NCBI RefSeq assembly: GCF_003626755.1
Contig: NZ_RBCJ01000003.1
Coordinates: 749,859-813,858 of the forward strand
Length of the DNA: 64,000 nucleotides
Source: Ulvibacterium marinum
GTDB lineage: Bacteria; Bacteroidota; Bacteroidia; Flavobacteriales; Flavobacteriaceae
Direction of reading: 5' to 3'
Part shown: one piece after another, positions 3,910 through 17,061 of the stretch
Layout: each line of letters opens with the position of its first letter
Position numbering within the stretch: position 1 is the stretch's first letter
Program-made: the position numbers and the translations under genes
The notes under the pieces: model-generated
The model's input: the letters and a program-made list of their open reading frames with translations, nothing else
Told to the model about the DNA's origin: nothing
Databases searched by the model: none

Positions 3910-6258
3910 ATGATCAAGAATGGGTTTAGAATCGGTCTGCGTATTTTGTTCAAGTACCGACTCTATACGGGAATCAGTCTTGTTGGCTTGGCAATCGCCA
4001 TAGCCTCGGTTTGGTTCATAGCCAACTATGTCACCAACTCCTATGGATATGATGCGTATCAAAATAATGCCCATCGAATCCATAGGCTAAGCATGCAAAT
4101 TACCGCCGGGGGCAATACCGACCGTTATGCTACCACCGGAAAACCCTTGGGCAGTGTATTGGCGGAGAACTATTCTGGTATCGACAACCACGCGCGGCTG
4201 ACTTTTCAGGGGAATACGGTAGTGCGGGTGAACGATGAACTTTTTAAGGAAAATGGTTTTTTTAAAACTAACTCGGAGGCCTTGGAAGTATTTACTTTCG
4301 ACTTCATTTCAGGAAATACAAATACCCCGGTATTAGATCCAAATTCGATTCTGTTATCCAGGTCTTTGGCCGAAAAGTATTTTGGGGGTACTGAAGTTGT
4401 AAACAAACCGATTACAATCGAGGACCATGCCTATACTATACAAGGCGTGTATGAGGATTGGCCCAAGAATTCGCATGTGAATCCCAAGGCTTTATTGTAT
4501 TCGGAAGGCCTTGCGGCCGATTATGAACTACAGGAATGGTTTAATCTGGAGCATTATACCTATGTGCTTCTCGATGGTTCCATGGACCTGAAAGACTTGG
4601 ATAACCAACTGGCCCAGATGACCACCGAACATCTAAAACCGGGTCTGGAAGGATCCGGGGTGGATATACAATTCTTGGCCCAACCCCTTAAATGCCTTTA
4701 TTTTGCACCCGCATTGATTGATGATGTGCCCAAGGGCAACGCCAAATATGTCTATGCGCTTTTATTCGCGGGCGTTTTGGTGCTACTGATCGCCGGCCTT
4801 AATTCCATTAATCTGTCCCTGACGCAATCCACCCGACGTACCAAGGAGATTCAACTGAAAAAAATGCTCGGCATATCCCGCGGACAATTGGTATTGCAGA
4901 GCGCTATGGAATCCGGCATTATGACGGTGTTGGTGCTCTTGGTTGCCGGAATTCTGGTGCTGGCCTTTAACAACACCTATTTTCAATATTCGGGTTTTCA
5001 GGCTTTGGATGTAACCAACCAGTGGCTTCTTCTACTCTTTATTCCCTTGATTACCTTTGGTTTTGGATTATTGGGAACGAGTTACTCCGGGGTGTACCTA
5101 TCCTTTTCCAATACTTTGGTGAATACAAAGAAACCCTCGGTCAATACCTTTAAAAAAGTGCTGCTCGGATTTCAGTTTACCATAGCGTCGATTATCATTA
5201 TTGCAACGCTTACGATGAACCAGCAGATCGATTTTATGAAAAACAAGGATTTGGGTTTTTCCAAGGAACAGGTCATGATCGTTGACCTTCCAGGAAACGA
5301 AGAATTCAAAGACAAGCACATCCAATTTCGGGAACGGGTGAAGAGCTTTCCAACCATCCAAAGTGCCTCCTTGATTGGGGGTGGAGCCCTACCGGGCGAG
5401 GAGAACGGAAAGGAGATTTTTCAGGTAACCGTTGAGGGGAAAGAAGTGGAAAAGATCTTTAACTTTTATCGGGTGGATGAGAATTTTAGCGAGCTCCTGG
5501 AGCTCCAATTGGCCCTGGGCCGAAACTTTGAAGCCGACCGTCCCAGTGACCAAGAGGATGCCGTATTGATCAACCAGGCTTTGGCTCAATCGCTACAATG
5601 GGACAACCCCTTGGGCCAAACGATACAGTATTATGGTAAGCCCAGAACAGTGATCGGGGTGGTGCAAAATTTTCATAACACATCCCTTCATAATGCCATA
5701 GAGCCCATAGTGTTTATTTATGACGAGGCCTATGCCACCAAGTTGCTCGTAAAAACGGCCGTGGGCAACGTGGGTCTGGTGGAGACGGCCTGGACGGATT
5801 TTTTCCCCAATACCCCTTTTGCGCTGTCCCATTTTGATCAATTTATCGAGGCCATGTATACCCAGGAGGATGATTTGGCCAAGTTATTGGGCTTCTTTTC
5901 CTTGGTATCCCTGAGCCTTTGTTGTATGGGGCTTTTCGCCATTTTCTCCTTGCACTTGCTGCAAAAGACCAAGGAATTAAGTATCAGGAAAGTATTGGGG
6001 GCCAACGCCTGGCATCTCATACGGACTACGACCCAAAGTTATGTGGGGGTTGCTGTACTGGCTATGGCTACGGCAATACCAGTGGCTTGGTATCTTATGG
6101 AAAACTGGCTCAGCGGGTTTAGCTATCGGATATCCGTGGATGCCTTGGTCTTTATCGGGGCCGCTGTTTTGATTTTAGGCATGAGCGGACTTACATTGTT
6201 GTACCATATTTTGAAATCCGTCCGCGTGAATCCCGTAACGGCTTTACAATCCGAATAG
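3910..6258 (+). CDS. ABC transporter permease with two FtsX/MacB modules
   Basis: A 782-residue membrane protein with an N-terminal transmembrane helix (about 20-45), a periplasmic MacB core-like segment (about 50-265), three helices at about 280-395, then a second copy of the plan: a helix at about 415-440, a periplasmic segment to about 650, and three helices from about 670 to the end. The segment ELSIRKVLGANAWHLIR is the conserved cytoplasmic loop of FtsX-type permeases, and RTKEIQLKKMLGISRGQL is its counterpart in the first half. Such proteins work with a separate ATPase in mechanotransmission or efflux. No ATPase gene is adjacent, so the partner must be encoded elsewhere. Confidence 0.88.
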   Translation: MIKNGFRIGLRILFKYRLYTGISLVGLAIAIASVWFIANYVTNSYGYDAYQNNAHRIHRLSMQITAGGNTDRYATTGKPLGSVLAENYSGIDNHARLTFQGNTVVRVNDELFKENGFFKTNSEALEVFTFDFISGNTNTPVLDPNSILLSRSLAEKYFGGTEVVNKPITIEDHAYTIQGVYEDWPKNSHVNPKALLYSEGLAADYELQEWFNLEHYTYVLLDGSMDLKDLDNQLAQMTTEHLKPGLEGSGVDIQFLAQPLKCLYFAPALIDDVPKGNAKYVYALLFAGVLVLLIAGLNSINLSLTQSTRRTKEIQLKKMLGISRGQLVLQSAMESGIMTVLVLLVAGILVLAFNNTYFQYSGFQALDVTNQWLLLLFIPLITFGFGLLGTSYSGVYLSFSNTLVNTKKPSVNTFKKVLLGFQFTIASIIIIATLTMNQQIDFMKNKDLGFSKEQVMIVDLPGNEEFKDKHIQFRERVKSFPTIQSASLIGGGALPGEENGKEIFQVTVEGKEVEKIFNFYRVDENFSELLELQLALGRNFEADRPSDQEDAVLINQALAQSLQWDNPLGQTIQYYGKPRTVIGVVQNFHNTSLHNAIEPIVFIYDEAYATKLLVKTAVGNVGLVETAWTDFFPNTPFALSHFDQFIEAMYTQEDDLAKLLGFFSLVSLSLCCMGLFAIFSLHLLQKTKELSIRKVLGANAWHLIRTTTQSYVGVAVLAMATAIPVAWYLMENWLSGFSYRISVDALVFIGAAVLILGMSGLTLLYHILKSVRVNPVTALQSE

Positions 6259-6268
6259 AGATTACCCA

Positions 6269-6318
6269 CGGCATTCGTAAGGACAGGATATAGGATAATA
6301 AACAATTGTTGTACAACA
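6269..6318 (+). repeat. Intergenic repeat copy R5 (5'-truncated)
   Basis: Contains GCATTCGTAAGGACAGGATA followed by an AT-rich stretch and the end sequence AATTGTTGTACAAC. It matches the 3' half of the repeat family described at 8480-8613. It lies between the conserved permease gene and the first cassette-like gene, and the HAD-like gene starts seven bases after it. The 5' half found in full copies is missing. Confidence 0.7.
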
Positions 6319-6324
6319 TTTAAA

Positions 6325-6786
6325 ATGAACATAAGCTTTGACCTTGATAGTACATTAATTCCGAATGGAAAGGAATTCGAAACTGAGAAACTTGGTGGAT
6401 TTGCAAGACTGTTTGGAATTGAAGAAATACGGAAAGGAACAGCAGAATTAATTACGGAATTACAAAATCAGGGAAATAAGGTCCATATTTACACAACTTC
6501 ATTTCGGACCAAAGGAAAAATAAGACGGATTTTAAAATATTACGGAATAAAGGTTGACCGAATTGTTAATCAGGAGGAAAATCAACATGTTTTAAAATCT
6601 CGAAATATAAACGCGTCAAAGTATCCAACGGCTTTCGGGTTTGATATTCATATTGATGATTCAAAAGGTATTGAAATGGAATCTGAACGATATAACTTTA
6701 GAGTAATTATTGTTGAGCCGACAGACAAGAATTGGATTGATAAAATTAAAAACGAATTGAAAACGTTGCATGGAGCGATCGACTAA
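6325..6786 (+). CDS. HAD-like phosphatase, small
   Basis: A 153-residue protein beginning MNISFDLDSTLIP, which carries the HAD motif I (DxDxT/S) at residues 6-10. Motif II is plausibly in HIYTTSFR (Thr/Ser after a beta-strand), and the acidic motif IV is FDIHIDDSKG near residue 115. HAD enzymes form an aspartyl-phosphate intermediate and act on small phosphorylated compounds in the cytoplasm; the substrate cannot be inferred. The gene is AT-rich compared with the permease before it. Its stop codon lies inside the next repeat copy (R4), so its last residues are encoded by repeat sequence. Confidence 0.75.
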   Translation: MNISFDLDSTLIPNGKEFETEKLGGFARLFGIEEIRKGTAELITELQNQGNKVHIYTTSFRTKGKIRRILKYYGIKVDRIVNQEENQHVLKSRNINASKYPTAFGFDIHIDDSKGIEMESERYNFRVIIVEPTDKNWIDKIKNELKTLHGAID

Positions 6787-6850
6787 AAAAATACTACATT
6801 CGTAAGGATAGGATATATGATCAATGATCATATACAATTGTTATGGCGCA
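6774..6850 (+). repeat. Intergenic repeat copy R4 (5' end fused to a gene)
   Basis: Includes AGCGATCGACT, then ACTACATTCGTAAGGATAGG and a perfect palindrome, TATATGATC and GATCATATA separated by AAT, then ACAATTGTTATGGCGCA. It aligns along its whole length with the 3' two thirds of the full copies. The upstream HAD-like gene ends within it, and the upstream candidate ATG (6843) of the following lipoprotein gene lies in its terminal bases. Confidence 0.75.
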
Positions 6851-6857
6851 TTCAAAA

Positions 6858-7595
6858 ATGAGATTATCTTCCATCGTTCTAATCATTCTCGTTCTGATGA
6901 CAAGCGGTTGTGTTTCAGATAAAAAAAAATCTGACAACCACCCGTCAAGGTATTTCATTGAGAATAAGTTAAGTTTCTTTGACCCTTACGAAATAACTTA
7001 TGCTGACCACAAATATCGAGGCTACACCTACGAGACATGGCTGAGAAAGCCCAATAACTTGGAAATGCTCCATGAGACATTCAAAAAAATTGGCTATAAG
7101 AAACTTATATCCGACTACGACTTAACGTCAAATCCCTGCTTGCTTTGGAGTTATGTAAAGCGACCACTAAACCACATCATTGATAGTTTGGTCATCACTT
7201 ACCCTCTTGATATCATCGAAGCGAAGTATTATCGAGAGTTTTGGCAGCGCAGAAAAAAAGAGAATAATGACCAGGTTGTTTTTAAAATACTACAAGAACT
7301 AGCCGAAATCCTTCTTAAGGACAAACCTGTTGAATACAATAACGATTTGGTCAACGATACACTTTACAACTTGGTGTACATGGAGAGGGTTAGACAAAAC
7401 CCGACTGAAGAACAAGCCCGACAGGACTTCGATTACCTAAAGAAAATTGGAATGCACGGTTCGGCATACAACCTACTTTACGAGAATACGAGCTACAAGG
7501 AAATTGACTGGGACAAAGACAAACTTTCAAAAGAGTTGCAGACTGATAATAAACGATGTTGTCCAAGAGTATGGATTAGTGACAATACAAAATGA
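6858..7595 (+). CDS. Predicted lipoprotein of unknown function
   Basis: About 245 residues from the ATG at 6858, beginning with a lipoprotein signal (MRLSSIVLIILVLMTSGC; lipobox Cys at residue 18). An in-frame ATG at 6843 would add five residues, but it falls inside the end of repeat R4, so 6858 is preferred. The mature part is charged and mostly helical in appearance, with many Lys, Asp and Tyr, and no family was recognised. The stop TGA overlaps an ATG at 7592. The gene belongs to the AT-rich same-strand set separated by the repeat family. Confidence 0.7.
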   Translation: MRLSSIVLIILVLMTSGCVSDKKKSDNHPSRYFIENKLSFFDPYEITYADHKYRGYTYETWLRKPNNLEMLHETFKKIGYKKLISDYDLTSNPCLLWSYVKRPLNHIIDSLVITYPLDIIEAKYYREFWQRRKKENNDQVVFKILQELAEILLKDKPVEYNNDLVNDTLYNLVYMERVRQNPTEEQARQDFDYLKKIGMHGSAYNLLYENTSYKEIDWDKDKLSKELQTDNKRCCPRVWISDNTK

Positions 7596-7681
7596 CAGGA
7601 AAAAGCGACACCACAACAATAGCTATAATCCATCCCGAGTTTCAGGACAAAATCATAGACAAGGCCATCGGCAACAATTTA

Positions 7682-8473
7682 ATGAACCGAATACTGGGAT
7701 TCATATTACTTCTATTAATTTCAGTTTTGTCTTTTGGACAAGAAAAGGATTTCTACGATTTGGATAATTCGTATCACGAAATTTTTAAAAATAATAAAGT
7801 AAAATCATTAAAAGTTTTGCGAAAAGACTTTGATAAAATCGGAGATATAAAAGAAAAGTACATTGAGTTAATTCAAAACTTTGCTAGAAACGGAGATATT
7901 GTCTGGGAAAAAGAATTTTACGATGACTCAACTGCGGCTTGGGAAGTCAACTACAAGTATAATGAACAACATCAAACTACTCGAACTGAATGGACTTGGC
8001 TAGACGAAGATGACCAAGAACTTACCGAATATGAGTATGATTCCGATAATAGACTTATCAAAAGTCGAGATTATTATAAGAGTTCAAACTCAACTGAATT
8101 TATATTGGAAGAATGCCAAAACTATTTTTACAAAAACAATCGAATTAGCAAAGTAACTAACCTAGAGAACGAAATAGAATCCTATTACAAAAAGAAAGGA
8201 AAAGTGATATTTGGATATACGGCTGATAATAAACTAAAGTATAAATATAAAAATGGTGAATTTGTCTATCAAAATTTAGATTCAATCATTTTTCAATACA
8301 AAAGAAATAGAATTGGTCAGATTTTAAAGACCAGGAAAACAGATAAAACAGGTACTATTCTAAGCAACACTGCTTACGAATATTCAAATGGACTTTTAAT
8401 GAAAGTGGTAGCTAAAGATGGAAATGGAAATTTGATGCGAGAAGAGGAATATCATTATGAGTATTATAAATAA
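7682..8473 (+). CDS. Exported protein with YD/MORN-like repeats, function unknown
   Basis: The frame is open from an ATG at 7592, but the ATG at 7682 begins a clear signal peptide (MNRILGFILLLLISVLSFG), so that start is preferred and gives 263 residues. The mature part has repeating units of about 20-25 residues rich in Tyr, Asp, Asn and Lys (for example YEYDSDNRLIKSRDYY and YEYSNGLLMKVVAKDGNGN), similar to RHS/YD-type or MORN-like repeats in exported Bacteroidota proteins. It ends just before the full repeat copy R1. Its role is unknown. The 90 bases between the lipoprotein stop and this start carry no recognised repeat. Confidence 0.65.
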   Translation: MNRILGFILLLLISVLSFGQEKDFYDLDNSYHEIFKNNKVKSLKVLRKDFDKIGDIKEKYIELIQNFARNGDIVWEKEFYDDSTAAWEVNYKYNEQHQTTRTEWTWLDEDDQELTEYEYDSDNRLIKSRDYYKSSNSTEFILEECQNYFYKNNRISKVTNLENEIESYYKKKGKVIFGYTADNKLKYKYKNGEFVYQNLDSIIFQYKRNRIGQILKTRKTDKTGTILSNTAYEYSNGLLMKVVAKDGNGNLMREEEYHYEYYK

Positions 8474-8479
8474 AAAACT

Positions 8480-8613
8480 ACTGCCAACCATGGTAACCAT
8501 CGCCCAAAATGTAGATGTACCGGCTGGGGTAATCGACTGAAAAAATGTTACATTCGTGAGGATAAGATAATAGGGATATATGATAAATGATCATATGCAA
8601 TTGTGGTAAGCAA
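8480..8613 (+). repeat. Intergenic repeat copy R1 (full length)
   Basis: The reference copy of the repeat family. In order it has an outer end TGCCAACCA, a segment CGCCCAAAATGTAGATGTAC, GGCTGGGGTAATCGACTG, ACATTCGTGAGGATAAGATA, an AT-rich near-palindrome around ATAAATGATCATAT, and the closing end TGGTAAGCA. The two ends are imperfect inverted repeats of each other (7 of 9 positions). AATGTA and TACATT inside it can also pair. The serine hydrolase gene begins eight bases later. Confidence 0.8.
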
Positions 8614-8620
8614 TTAGATA

Positions 8621-9898
8621 ATGATTAGAAAATTTCATGCTAAAAGCTTTTTAGTTCTCAGTATTATCGTAATATCATGTACATCAAAAGAGGAATCAGA
8701 AAGATTCATAAAGGAAAAACTCGTACATGACATTATGGTACTTAAGGACTCCACACGACCCATAATCCGTAGAATCGACAGTACTGAAATTAGCGTCGTT
8801 AACCTTGAAGCCAGAATTCAATCGCTTATGAAGGAAGCGAAAGTAACCGGTCTCGCTATCTCCATACTCAATGAAAATCAGATTATCTATAGAAATGCCT
8901 TCGGTTATGCTAATTATGACCGAGAGACCACACTCCAAATAAATCACTCATTCTATGGTGCTTCCTTGAGCAAGGCGGTTTTTGGATACCTGATTTCGGT
9001 TTTAACAAGTGAAGAAGTCATCGACTTGGATAAACCACTTCAAACATACTTGGATTTCCCTTTATACAAGTTGAATTCGGAAACCAGACGGTATGGGTTT
9101 CAGGATTTGAAGAATGACAAACGTTACGAAAGTATTACAGCAAGAATGTGCCTTTCACATACCAGTGGCTTTCAAAATTGGAGATCGATACCCAGACCAG
9201 ATGATCCTGACAATAAAAGGACACTTAAAATTTACTCGAAACCTGGAACACAGTATTTTTATTCTGGAGAGGGGATGATGCTTTTGCAATATGTTATCGA
9301 ACATATAACGGGAAAGAAACTTGAAGAATTGGCGCAAGATTTAATCTTTAAACCCCTTCAAATGAATAATACAAGTTATGTATGGCAAGAGCGCTTTGAA
9401 AATAAATATTGCAACGGGCACTCACCAAAACAGTATGTTCGTAAAAAGGACAAAAGAGAAATAACCGCTGCCGCTCATTCTTTGGAAACCAATTTAATCG
9501 ATTACTCAATATTCGTTCAACATGTTATTAAATTGTACCATGAGAATTCAAAGGTTACCCAACACTTGTTCAAACCGAATTTCAGCATTCGTACTAAGGC
9601 ACAATTTGGACCTGGGTCTCTTCAAGAGTCAGATGAAAATGACCCTATTCAATTAAACTATGGATTGGGCTGGGGCTTGTTGCAAACACCATTTGGATTT
9701 GGAGCTTTCAAAGAAGGGCATGGTAACCGTTTTCAACATTATACGATTGTATTTCCTGAAACAGGGACCGGTGTCGTCATGATTTCAAACAGTGACAATG
9801 CAGAAAGCATATTCAAGGAACTATTGGAAATAACTATTGGCGATACTTACACACCATGGAAATGGCAAAATTATATTCCGTACGAAGCGAAGGAATAA
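8621..9898 (+). CDS. Serine hydrolase lipoprotein (beta-lactamase / DD-peptidase fold)
   Basis: A 425-residue protein with a lipoprotein signal (lipobox Cys at residue 20). It has the three motifs of the class C beta-lactamase/penicillin-binding fold: SxxK as SLSK at 115-118, the Tyr motif as YSG at about 214-216, and a final motif in EGHGN at about 365-369. Members of this broad family are esterases, peptidases or D-amino-acid hydrolases; sequence alone does not support beta-lactam resistance. The catalytic serine would acylate the substrate on the outer side of the inner membrane or in the periplasm. The gene is framed by repeat copies R1 and R2. Confidence 0.85.
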   Translation: MIRKFHAKSFLVLSIIVISCTSKEESERFIKEKLVHDIMVLKDSTRPIIRRIDSTEISVVNLEARIQSLMKEAKVTGLAISILNENQIIYRNAFGYANYDRETTLQINHSFYGASLSKAVFGYLISVLTSEEVIDLDKPLQTYLDFPLYKLNSETRRYGFQDLKNDKRYESITARMCLSHTSGFQNWRSIPRPDDPDNKRTLKIYSKPGTQYFYSGEGMMLLQYVIEHITGKKLEELAQDLIFKPLQMNNTSYVWQERFENKYCNGHSPKQYVRKKDKREITAAAHSLETNLIDYSIFVQHVIKLYHENSKVTQHLFKPNFSIRTKAQFGPGSLQESDENDPIQLNYGLGWGLLQTPFGFGAFKEGHGNRFQHYTIVFPETGTGVVMISNSDNAESIFKELLEITIGDTYTPWKWQNYIPYEAKE

Positions 9899-9901
9899 AA
9901 A

Positions 9902-10026
9902 CGTTGTAGAACAAGGGTAACCGTTACACAAAATGTAGGTGTGACGGCGGGGTATTCGCCCGAAAAATACAACAGTCGTTAGGACGGGATATCTAATCAT
10001 TGATCATATACCATTGTAGGCTACAA
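9902..10026 (+). repeat. Intergenic repeat copy R2 (full length)
   Basis: Begins just after the hydrolase stop with GTTGTAGAACAAGGGTAACC, continues with ACAAAATGTAGGTGTGACGG and GGGGTATTCGCCCG (GGCG and CGCC can pair), then CAGTCGTTAGGACGGGATAT, ATCATTGATCATATAC, and ends ATTGTAGGCTACAAT. The outer ends TTGTAG and CTACAA are inverted repeats but differ in sequence from the ends of R1, whereas the interior is conserved. Confidence 0.78.
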
Positions 10027-10083: not shown

Positions 10084-10323
10084 ATGGCGCGACAAAGTAT
10101 ATCCCTAACGGAACCCAATGATCAATGGTTAAAGTCTCAAGTAGATAGCAAAGAATACTCCAGTAAAAGTGAACTTGTTAATGATTTGATAAGGCAGGCC
10201 AGAAATCAACAAATTGAAATTGATTGGATTAGGGCTAAGCTGAAGAAAGCCGAAGAAAGTGGATTTACGACGGACAGCAAACAGGACATCCTAGCACAAT
10301 CTAAATCTTCCTTTAATGGCTAG
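10084..10323 (+). CDS. parD: ParD-like antitoxin (ribbon-helix-helix)
   Basis: A 79-residue protein starting MARQSISLTEPNDQWLKSQV, a ribbon-helix-helix N-terminus followed by SKSELVNDLIRQAR, the helix typical of ParD antitoxins. The C-terminal half is charged (KKAEESGFTTDSKQDILAQS) and would wrap the toxin. In type II systems this protein neutralises ParE and, alone or with it, represses the operon. The start at 10084 directly follows a perfect inverted repeat; an upstream in-frame ATG at 10000 would run through the repeat and operator and was rejected. The stop overlaps the toxin start by eight bases. Confidence 0.88.
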   Translation: MARQSISLTEPNDQWLKSQVDSKEYSSKSELVNDLIRQARNQQIEIDWIRAKLKKAEESGFTTDSKQDILAQSKSSFNG

Positions 10324-10600
10324 CTACCGGTTGAGCAACCAAGCTAAAAAAGACTTGATCCGAATTCATCACTATGGTATCCATAAGTTTGGAATGGCCC
10401 AAGCGGATGCATACTTTGAAACTTTCTTCGAATATTTTGACCTCATTGCACAACGCCCATTTTCTTTTGAATCCGTCGATTTTGTCAAAAAAGGATATCG
10501 ACGCTGTGTATGTGGAGCGGATAGTATTTACTACAGAATTCAGAATGATACTGTTGAAATAATGACTATACTAGGACGGCAAGACCCGACCAATATTTAA
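10316..10600 (+). CDS. parE: ParE-like toxin (RelE/ParE superfamily)
   Basis: A 94-residue protein with the ParE layout: SYRLSNQAKKDLIRIHHYGI at the N-terminus, a helical stretch with the conserved aromatic residues, then GYRRCVCGADSIYYRI and a closing EIMTILGRQDP. ParE toxins in the characterised families inhibit DNA gyrase, but members of this fold can act on other targets, so the target here is an assumption. It is translated with parD through an eight-base overlap. The pair sits between repeat copies R2 and R3. Confidence 0.88.
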   Translation: MASYRLSNQAKKDLIRIHHYGIHKFGMAQADAYFETFFEYFDLIAQRPFSFESVDFVKKGYRRCVCGADSIYYRIQNDTVEIMTILGRQDPTNI

Positions 10601-10607
10601 AAAAATC

Positions 10608-10727
10608 GTAGTCAATAACAGTACCTGTCTCCCAAAATGCAAGTGTATCGGCCGGGGTTAACGATCTTAAATGCTACATGCGAAAGGATGGGATAATGGG
10701 TTGTGATCTATATTAGCACCTGCGGCC
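10608..10727 (+). repeat. Intergenic repeat copy R3 (right end of the array)
   Basis: Contains CCCAAAATGCAAGTGTATCG, GCCGGGGTTAACGAT (ATCG and CGAT can pair around it), GCTACATGCGAAAGGATGGG and TGTGATCTATAT. It aligns with R1 and R2, although its 3' end has diverged and no longer pairs well with the 5' end. It follows the toxin gene and is the last copy of the 6.3-10.7 kb array. No gene follows it on the same strand. Confidence 0.7.
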
Positions 10728-10768
10728 AAAAGAATCTGGACACCATACATTCATCCATTTCATCTTGA

Positions 10769-11383
10769 TCAATCCAACAGCTTTTCCCAGGTTTTCATTT
10801 CAGTAGGATGCAGGTAGGGTAGCCATAATCTAAAAAGGAGCTTGGCATAGTACGCAAACGATACCTTATCCGGGTTATAGTCCTTGACATTTAACCAGGA
10901 TTGTATGTTGAAGATAAATTGTTCCGCCAGAAATTCAACCTGTCTGGCACTGATTTCTTCCCTGAACTTTCCTTCCTTTTTGTATAACTCTATAAGGGCC
11001 AGAATTTCGGACTGCTTGGTCTGGAACAACAGCGTCATGACCTCCTTAATTTCCGGTAGCCTTCTCCAGATCACATCATTTTGTTGAAAGAATAGGCGAT
11101 ACGAATACATGATTTTAAAGTTATCCGTCATGGATAGGAGCATCTGTTGCGGATCTAAAGGCTTATCCTCAATGATTCGCTCTGCGCTCTTCAATGCAGT
11201 GAGCATGTCACTAAATAGCGTTTCAAGCAGTTTGTCCTTATTCGGATAATGATAATGCAAGTTGCCCTGACTGATACCGAGTTCCTTCGCAATATGGCGG
11301 GTCGTGATGTTCTCCACCCCACTTCGATTGAACAGGTCAAGGGACATAGCGATGATTTTTTCTTTGGTAGATGTTTGGTTCAT
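10769..11383 (-). CDS. TetR-family transcriptional repressor
   Basis: A 204-residue protein. The N-terminal DNA-binding domain (residues 5-50) carries the TetR pattern: TKEKIIAMSLDLFNRSGVEN, then TTRHIAKELGISQGNLHYHY and PNKDKLLETLF. The C-terminal ligand/dimer domain is helical and not assignable to a ligand. It is divergent from a methyltransferase gene. Two identical palindromes sit between them, one over this gene's own start codon, so autoregulation together with control of the methyltransferase is likely. Confidence 0.9.
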   Translation of the reverse strand: MNQTSTKEKIIAMSLDLFNRSGVENITTRHIAKELGISQGNLHYHYPNKDKLLETLFSDMLTALKSAERIIEDKPLDPQQMLLSMTDNFKIMYSYRLFFQQNDVIWRRLPEIKEVMTLLFQTKQSEILALIELYKKEGKFREEISARQVEFLAEQFIFNIQSWLNVKDYNPDKVSFAYYAKLLFRLWLPYLHPTEMKTWEKLLD

Positions 11384-16856: not shown

Positions 16857-16901
16857 TTGATTCCAAGTAATCGTACCAGTAGTTGATTTTCCTGTCACAT
16901 C

Positions 16902-16943
16902 GAGCGCAGTCGAGATGTAATTGCCGACCTTTCGACTGCGCTC
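16902..16943. repeat. REP-like palindromic element
   Basis: GAGCGCAGTCGA at 16902-16913 and its perfect reverse complement TCGACTGCGCTC at 16932-16943 flank an 18-base loop. The composition is more GC-rich than the surroundings. Such palindromes are scattered as REP-like elements in many flavobacterial genomes. It may also act as a transcription end signal for the preceding genes. Confidence 0.6.
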
Positions 16944-17061
16944 AAGGGGACAAAAAGCGTGAATTTCGATTATAAAATTTAAATACTGGCACAATTACGG
17001 ATATACATGTTTATACAATCAAAACAATTCATTAATACTATTAAAATTTAAAATAATAATC

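Follow-up and report, generated by a model that had tools for sequence, protein, structure and literature searches.

The window analysed here, a stretch of 64,000 nucleotides from the genome of Ulvibacterium marinum, holds five copies of one repeat family, all on the + strand and each lying between + strand genes. Three are full copies (R1, 8479–8612; R2, 9903–10025; R3, 10607–10735) and two correspond to the 3' part of the repeat (R4, about 6770–6849; R5, about 6258–6319). When a sequence model of the family was run on the bacterium's own genome, the full copies gave E-values of 5e-27 to 8e-21 (R1 1e-26, R2 5e-27, R3 8e-21), R4 2e-16 and R5 9e-4. On the left the array is bounded by the gene for a MacB/FtsX-type permease (3910–6258, + strand; Pfam PF12704 and PF02687), which is conserved in two congeners; both have full repeat copies behind this gene, which in the window precedes R5, a partial copy with a crossover-type GTT at 6308 (GTTGTACAACAT). 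Cassette 1 follows as a + strand ORF of 153 aa (6325–6786) that has no Pfam match and looks HAD-like by eye, and a search of viral contigs with its protein found no relative. R4, with its GTT at 6840 and a 3' half similar to the attI of locus L142, leads into cassette 2 (6843–7595, + strand; 250 aa), lipoprotein-like by eye and also without a Pfam match. Judging by the pattern in related arrays, positions 7608–7680 of the + strand likely hold a degenerate attC of a widespread type (ACACCACAACAATAGCTATAAT ... CATCGGCAACAATTTAATG), which would be the boundary of cassettes 2 and 3. Cassette 3 is a + strand ORF of about 263 aa (7682–8473), its true start probably at 7682 (MNRILGFILL).

The right part of the array contains the full copies. 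R1 begins with its left end, here called R'' (8479–8488, TACTGCCAAC), and on its right side the next cassette starts at 8603 (GTGGTAAGCA). This is cassette 4 (8621–9898, + strand), encoding a serine hydrolase of beta-lactamase fold (PF00144, E 1e-40), a type also present as a cassette in congener locus L064. R2 has its R'' at 9903–9912 (GTTGTAGAAC) and the start of the next cassette at 10016 (GTAGGCTACA), and the genes that follow encode a ParD antitoxin (cassette 5a, 10084–10323, + strand; PF03693) and a ParE toxin (cassette 5b, 10316–10600, + strand; PF05016). R3, the last repeat, has an R'' at 10607–10616 (CGTAGTCAAT) and a degenerate 3' half. Outside the array, a conserved TetR-family gene on the - strand (10769–11383) forms the right flank, as it does in congener locus L016. 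Searches of the window against Rfam and for tRNAs returned no match and no tRNA, respectively.

The ends of the repeats vary between copies while the interior is conserved, as an earlier note on this DNA had described, and the strings that it quoted sit where it placed them. It had also held that the two ends of each copy remain complementary to one another. In the window this complementarity does not exceed chance: R1 forms 7 of 9 pairs and R2 7 of 11, and when 20-nt pieces were drawn at random from the window and compared two by two, 13.8% of the combinations offered 7 or more pairs in some 9-nt register; the quoted 3' ends of R2 and R5 (GTAGGCTACAA and GTTGTACAAC) are moreover largely self-palindromic. 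DNA folds of R1–R3 are no better than those of shuffles (z about -2 to +1.5). A candidate inner stem of the window repeats, AATGTAG/CTACATT, was dropped as inconsistent between copies.

With the sequence model, the family is strong in only three genomes of a single genus (Ulvibacterium, including Ulvibacterium sp. IP29b_bin.135), at one locus each and always behind the same FtsX-type gene, and outside the genus the model gave only weak matches. A DNA search of 249 genomes with one repeat likewise returned only congeners and short attI-like pieces. Across the three congeners the flanks are 83–95% identical and the genes in between are different. Cassette 1 is common to the window and L016 (94% identity over 400 nt), yet in L016 it is preceded by a very different attC type and the identity with the window starts at the GTT, the trace expected from cassette exchange with crossover at GTT. 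Identical or near-identical cassettes in differing contexts also start at C|GTT in relatives, for example in the attI and attC contexts of L077 (100% identity over 401 nt). One attC copy of congener G299 (L064:11250–11430) is split by a dispersed repeat that contains the palindrome GAGCGCAGTCGA, and an inverted repeat similar to that element lies in the window at 16893–16952.

In the related arrays, R'' read as its reverse complement reproduces the opening ~10 nt of the cassette upstream of the site, a match to be expected of a circular cassette under the integron model. We examined 169 cassettes whose sites had been detected by their inner arms and GTT only, the letters of R'' beyond the AAC core being unused: at least 6 of the 7 variable positions matched the cassette's own start in 95 cases, compared with 11 for the other end of the same copy and a shuffled expectation of 3.8. 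With one cassette taken per array, the counts were 23/41 against 2/41. Mutual information per position came to 0.20–0.68 bits for the own start; for the other end of the same copy it equalled that of shuffles, so the covariation of an outer stem that the earlier note would predict across many copies is absent from these arrays. Cassettes lacking a match are probably for the most part those in which a further site in between went undetected. An alignment of 36 sites of ~135 nt shows 93% pairing in the inner stems, with changes in both partners of 11 of the 12 pairs; at the outer variable positions, pairing is 45.8% within the array copy and 95.4% once the own start is substituted, though these 36 sites were selected by own-start match, and the unbiased figures are the 169-cassette counts and the mutual information. 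Compensating change is thus real, as had been supposed, but its partner is the start of the same cassette and not the other end of the same copy. The AAC/GTT core is conserved in these sites, as it is in classical attC. Among 152 chained cassettes, the longest ORF (at least 60 aa) lies on the + strand in 112 and on the other strand in 3. Site lengths in L084, L090, L100, L101, L106 and L114 fall into two classes, ~130–140 and 195–205 nt, sometimes within one array.

Folding follows the same division between the related arrays and the window. Folded as DNA, the related arrays gave z-scores of -5.6 for the bottom strand in circular form, -3.7 for the bottom strand in the array and -4.3 for the circular top strand, against 0.05 for a cassette-body control, and a single-strand fold with a conserved stem and a bottom-strand preference, found there, was not seen in R1–R3. 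The suggestion that folding of the strand is under selection therefore holds for the related arrays, where 12 of 16 predicted pairs are compensated, but not for the outer stem in which it had been placed; the comparison with folded recombination sites was right in kind, the sites being of attC type.

Within the genus, the reverse complement of R'' matches the own start at 6/7 and 7/7 positions in L016, at 7/7, 5/7 and 7/7 in L064 and at 7/7 in L068, compared with only 1–3/7 for the other end of the same copy. Complementarity of R'' to the own cassette start, together with a G|TT crossover, is thus found in relatives, with genus copies at 5–7/7. In the window itself, R3 and R1 reach 5/7 (R1 with a mutated start), in registers picked by eye assuming decay or shifted registers, and R2 only 2/7; to judge from the sequences, decay probably obscures the own-start match in these copies. 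The right half of the window repeat aligned with the attI of an Arenibacter recombinase with a score of 29, against a shuffled maximum of 16. It may be, then, that the window copies, which resemble the left half of an attC fused to an attI-like right half, are hybrid, attI-like or decaying sites. Since this 3' half is like attI and unlike an ordinary attC L' arm, the repeat subfamily of the window may recombine differently or be decaying. The stretches of 3' half that match attI are 6784–6844, 8550–8607 and 9973–10020, and the matching Arenibacter loci are L142 and L121.

A recombinase heads the related arrays. Scanning 84,980 genomes, we found 74 Bacteroidota loci, nearly all from Flavobacteriaceae, in which a gene for a 375-aa tyrosine recombinase lies upstream of a palindromic attI and cassette arrays and is co-directional with the cassettes; the enzyme occurs in 72 of 397 Flavobacteriaceae species sampled (about 18%). 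In these relatives, attI adjoins the recombinase gene where the cassettes start. In most loci, a palindrome whose letters vary and a start reading GTTR come 15–60 nt past the recombinase stop codon; the attI motif was placed in 64 of the 74 loci, a few at the wrong GTT by the script, and 47 of the 64 palindromes lie above the shuffled 95th percentile. Behind the recombinase of congener G299 (L068) there come in order a palindrome, CCTAC, GTTGGCTGTAATT, an ORF and a site starting TACAGCCAAC ACGGGTAACCGTTGCGCAA. The R'' of this attC is an exact reverse complement of the cassette start (10/10), and its remainder is the 5' motif of the window repeats. The 375-aa recombinase gene was searched for in the window's genome and is absent; the window array is therefore an orphan, CALIN-like array. 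As candidates for the integrase, we also weighed recombinases of 403–407 aa encoded near L017 and ~50 kb away from the array of the window; they were rejected as arm-type enzymes common in the family, with 43–45 bits to the integron model. Solitary attI-like sites (ATATGATCAATGATCATAT, a spacer and GTT) were seen in three other genera (L017:6798–6850, L018:6583–6627, L019:6842–6885), with A+T-rich sequence before them, cassette-like ORFs after them and no 375-aa recombinase nearby.

The enzyme scores above the NF040815 (XerA-like) family cut-off, and its members group in the tree as a separate clade (100/98) next to IntI (95/87), although this apparent sister position depends on long branches. 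The spacing from KGxKxR to HxLRHSFA is 58–59 aa in 63 of these enzymes, compared with 100 aa in 19 IntI of the phylum and 60–66 in XerA/XerD. Ahead of the core-binding domain there is an N-terminal part of ~100 residues. In 73 of the 74 loci, a divergent gene upstream of the recombinase encodes a zinc-ribbon protein of ~128 aa, possibly a regulator or accessory factor. The structural model of one example (L021:1324–1707; model mcefc8d585905, pLDDT 88) has a long helix and a beta domain.

We therefore read the window as holding a small array of gene cassettes in which the repeats serve as joints of attC type, belonging to an integron-like system, and we give this reading a probability of about 0.85. 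At the level of sequence, this is supported by the array itself, the covariation of R'' with the own start, the hairpin covariation in related arrays, the GTT crossover and the linkage of recombinase, attI and array. In the proposed mechanism, a cassette would consist of one gene or operon and one site. As a circular intermediate, its site would be complete, R'' (...AAC) pairing with R' (GTT...) at its own start, and the tyrosine recombinase would cut at or beside G|TT and integrate the circle into attI or a further site, presumably by single-strand chemistry on the bottom strand and with some part played by the zinc-ribbon protein. Each arrayed site would then take its right end from the cassette that follows, and for that reason its two ends may be mismatched. 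In classical integrons, too, the R' of an array copy derives from the next cassette.

Other explanations have to account for the same observations. If the repeats were folded RNA or DNA elements with an outer stem covarying within the copy, as first proposed, the partial complementarity of the R1 and R2 strings would be expected, and covariation of the inner stem is in fact found at the sites of related arrays; yet the outer positions of one copy share no mutual information and are paired at the 45.8% given above, and the window copies have fold z-scores of about 0 and no Rfam match, all of which makes this reading very improbable. Even harder to credit is a set of dispersed palindromic or MITE-like repeats spread by an unrelated transposase, with the intervening genes there by accident. 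The repeats are indeed short, multiple and confined to the genus, and one congener copy is itself interrupted by a dispersed repeat. The copies nonetheless share one slot and one orientation with one gene or operon between neighbours, the identity of shared cassettes starts exactly at GTT, and transposition leaves the match of R'' to the own start unexplained.

The possibility of a canonical integron whose IntI has diverged, or of a cassette cluster (CALIN) mobilised by an IntI of that sort, deserves somewhat more weight, but we still hold it to be unlikely. The cassette logic, the AAC/GTT boxes, the folded attC and the attI adjoining a tyrosine recombinase are as in a canonical integron, the recombinase clade neighbours IntI in the tree, and a canonical IntI is present in 105 of the 395 genomes sampled from the phylum. 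Against this, none of the canonical matches (E <= 1e-70) in the sample came from the window's family, the IntI-specific additional domain is missing from all 63 enzymes measured, scores with TIGR02249 are 210–214 bits against a cut-off of 265, and the recombinase is extended by an N-terminal domain and accompanied by a partner gene that is divergently oriented and conserved.

To judge from its sequence, then, the array is integron-like and not a canonical integron, because the IntI-specific insert, a defining feature, is missing. The system shares with integrons the co-oriented one-gene cassettes, the AAC/GTT core, an R'' matching its own cassette start, an attI adjoining a tyrosine recombinase and the existence of orphan arrays and, in related arrays, a folded site with a conserved inner stem whose bottom strand folds better. 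It differs in its recombinase, which is without the IntI additional domain, has the ~100-aa N-terminal extension, is encoded in the direction of the cassettes, ahead of a palindromic attI, and is accompanied by the divergent zinc-ribbon neighbour. The IntI additional domain is regarded as necessary for integron recombination. XerA-type recombinases (NF040815; PDB 4a8e, 5hxy) provide the best family match above cut-off and a similar spacing of catalytic motifs, but XerA lacks the N-terminal extension of the Flavobacteriaceae enzyme. XerA works on dif-like sites, and we know of no cassette array associated with it.

That the recombinase at the head of the related arrays is not IntI suggests that Bacteroidota have a second kind of integron, one that has been largely overlooked. 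We lean towards a fuller form of this proposal, in which the second kind is independent and has a XerA-like recombinase that lacks the IntI domain, is extended at its N-terminus and is partnered by a zinc-ribbon protein; its cassettes would be captured at a palindromic attI via folded attC, it would occur in about a fifth of Flavobacteriaceae species and on plasmids, and the gut rAID arrays would be one branch of it. If confirmed, it would mean that folded-site cassette capture is possible with a different enzyme plan, and named genes (the recombinase and its zinc-ribbon neighbour) and sites (attI and attC) are now available for direct testing. The additional domain serves for recognising IntI (PMC9024848, PMC9668308). 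Because current integron searches rely on it, a class without it would escape them. In a 2021 classification of tyrosine recombinases, the integron-specific insertion was not fully conserved in an 'integron-like' subgroup (PMC8138268), so single members of the present class may have been noticed earlier without their arrays. Our literature search on Flavobacteriaceae integrons found nothing among openly licensed papers, which is weak evidence.

The recombinase-associated acquired interbacterial defence (rAID) arrays of Bacteroidales, known from gut members of this order and defined by orphan immunity cargo, also begin with a tyrosine recombinase, behind which lie short co-oriented genes with conserved motifs in the spaces between them, and their biogenesis is stated as open in a preprint (PMC12247911). 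This recombinase-headed architecture is present in congeners and relatives, and the window's genome is without the recombinase. On Bacteroides ovatus and Parabacteroides plasmids (L173, L174), a homologue heads co-oriented immunity genes, the B. ovatus plasmid protein being 40% identical to the Flavobacteriaceae enzyme. Complementarity of a gene's own ends reached 9/9 in 4 of 13 rAID-type genes, compared with 0.7% of unrelated pairs and 0 of 11 same-copy pairs; given the small sample, we treat this only as a lead. The intergenic sites of L173 and L174 are ~65 nt long, with ends (CCATTANNNN / NNNNTAAC) complementary within the gene unit. Sites in the Flavobacteriaceae arrays examined are longer, at 130–200 nt against the ~65 nt of the rAID plasmids read here, and the window cargo lacks an immunity family, consisting by Pfam of a beta-lactamase fold, ParDE and unknown proteins. 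If confirmed, the proposed system would supply a concrete mechanism for the rAID defence arrays of the human gut (PMC12247911). Homologues 40–44% identical are also carried by Persicobacter and Chryseobacterium plasmids, where the same attI/R'' pattern is recognisable by eye, and the plasmid-borne version in Chryseobacterium (L172) suggests mobile platforms. In L172, one long hairpin sequence is repeated in two sites.
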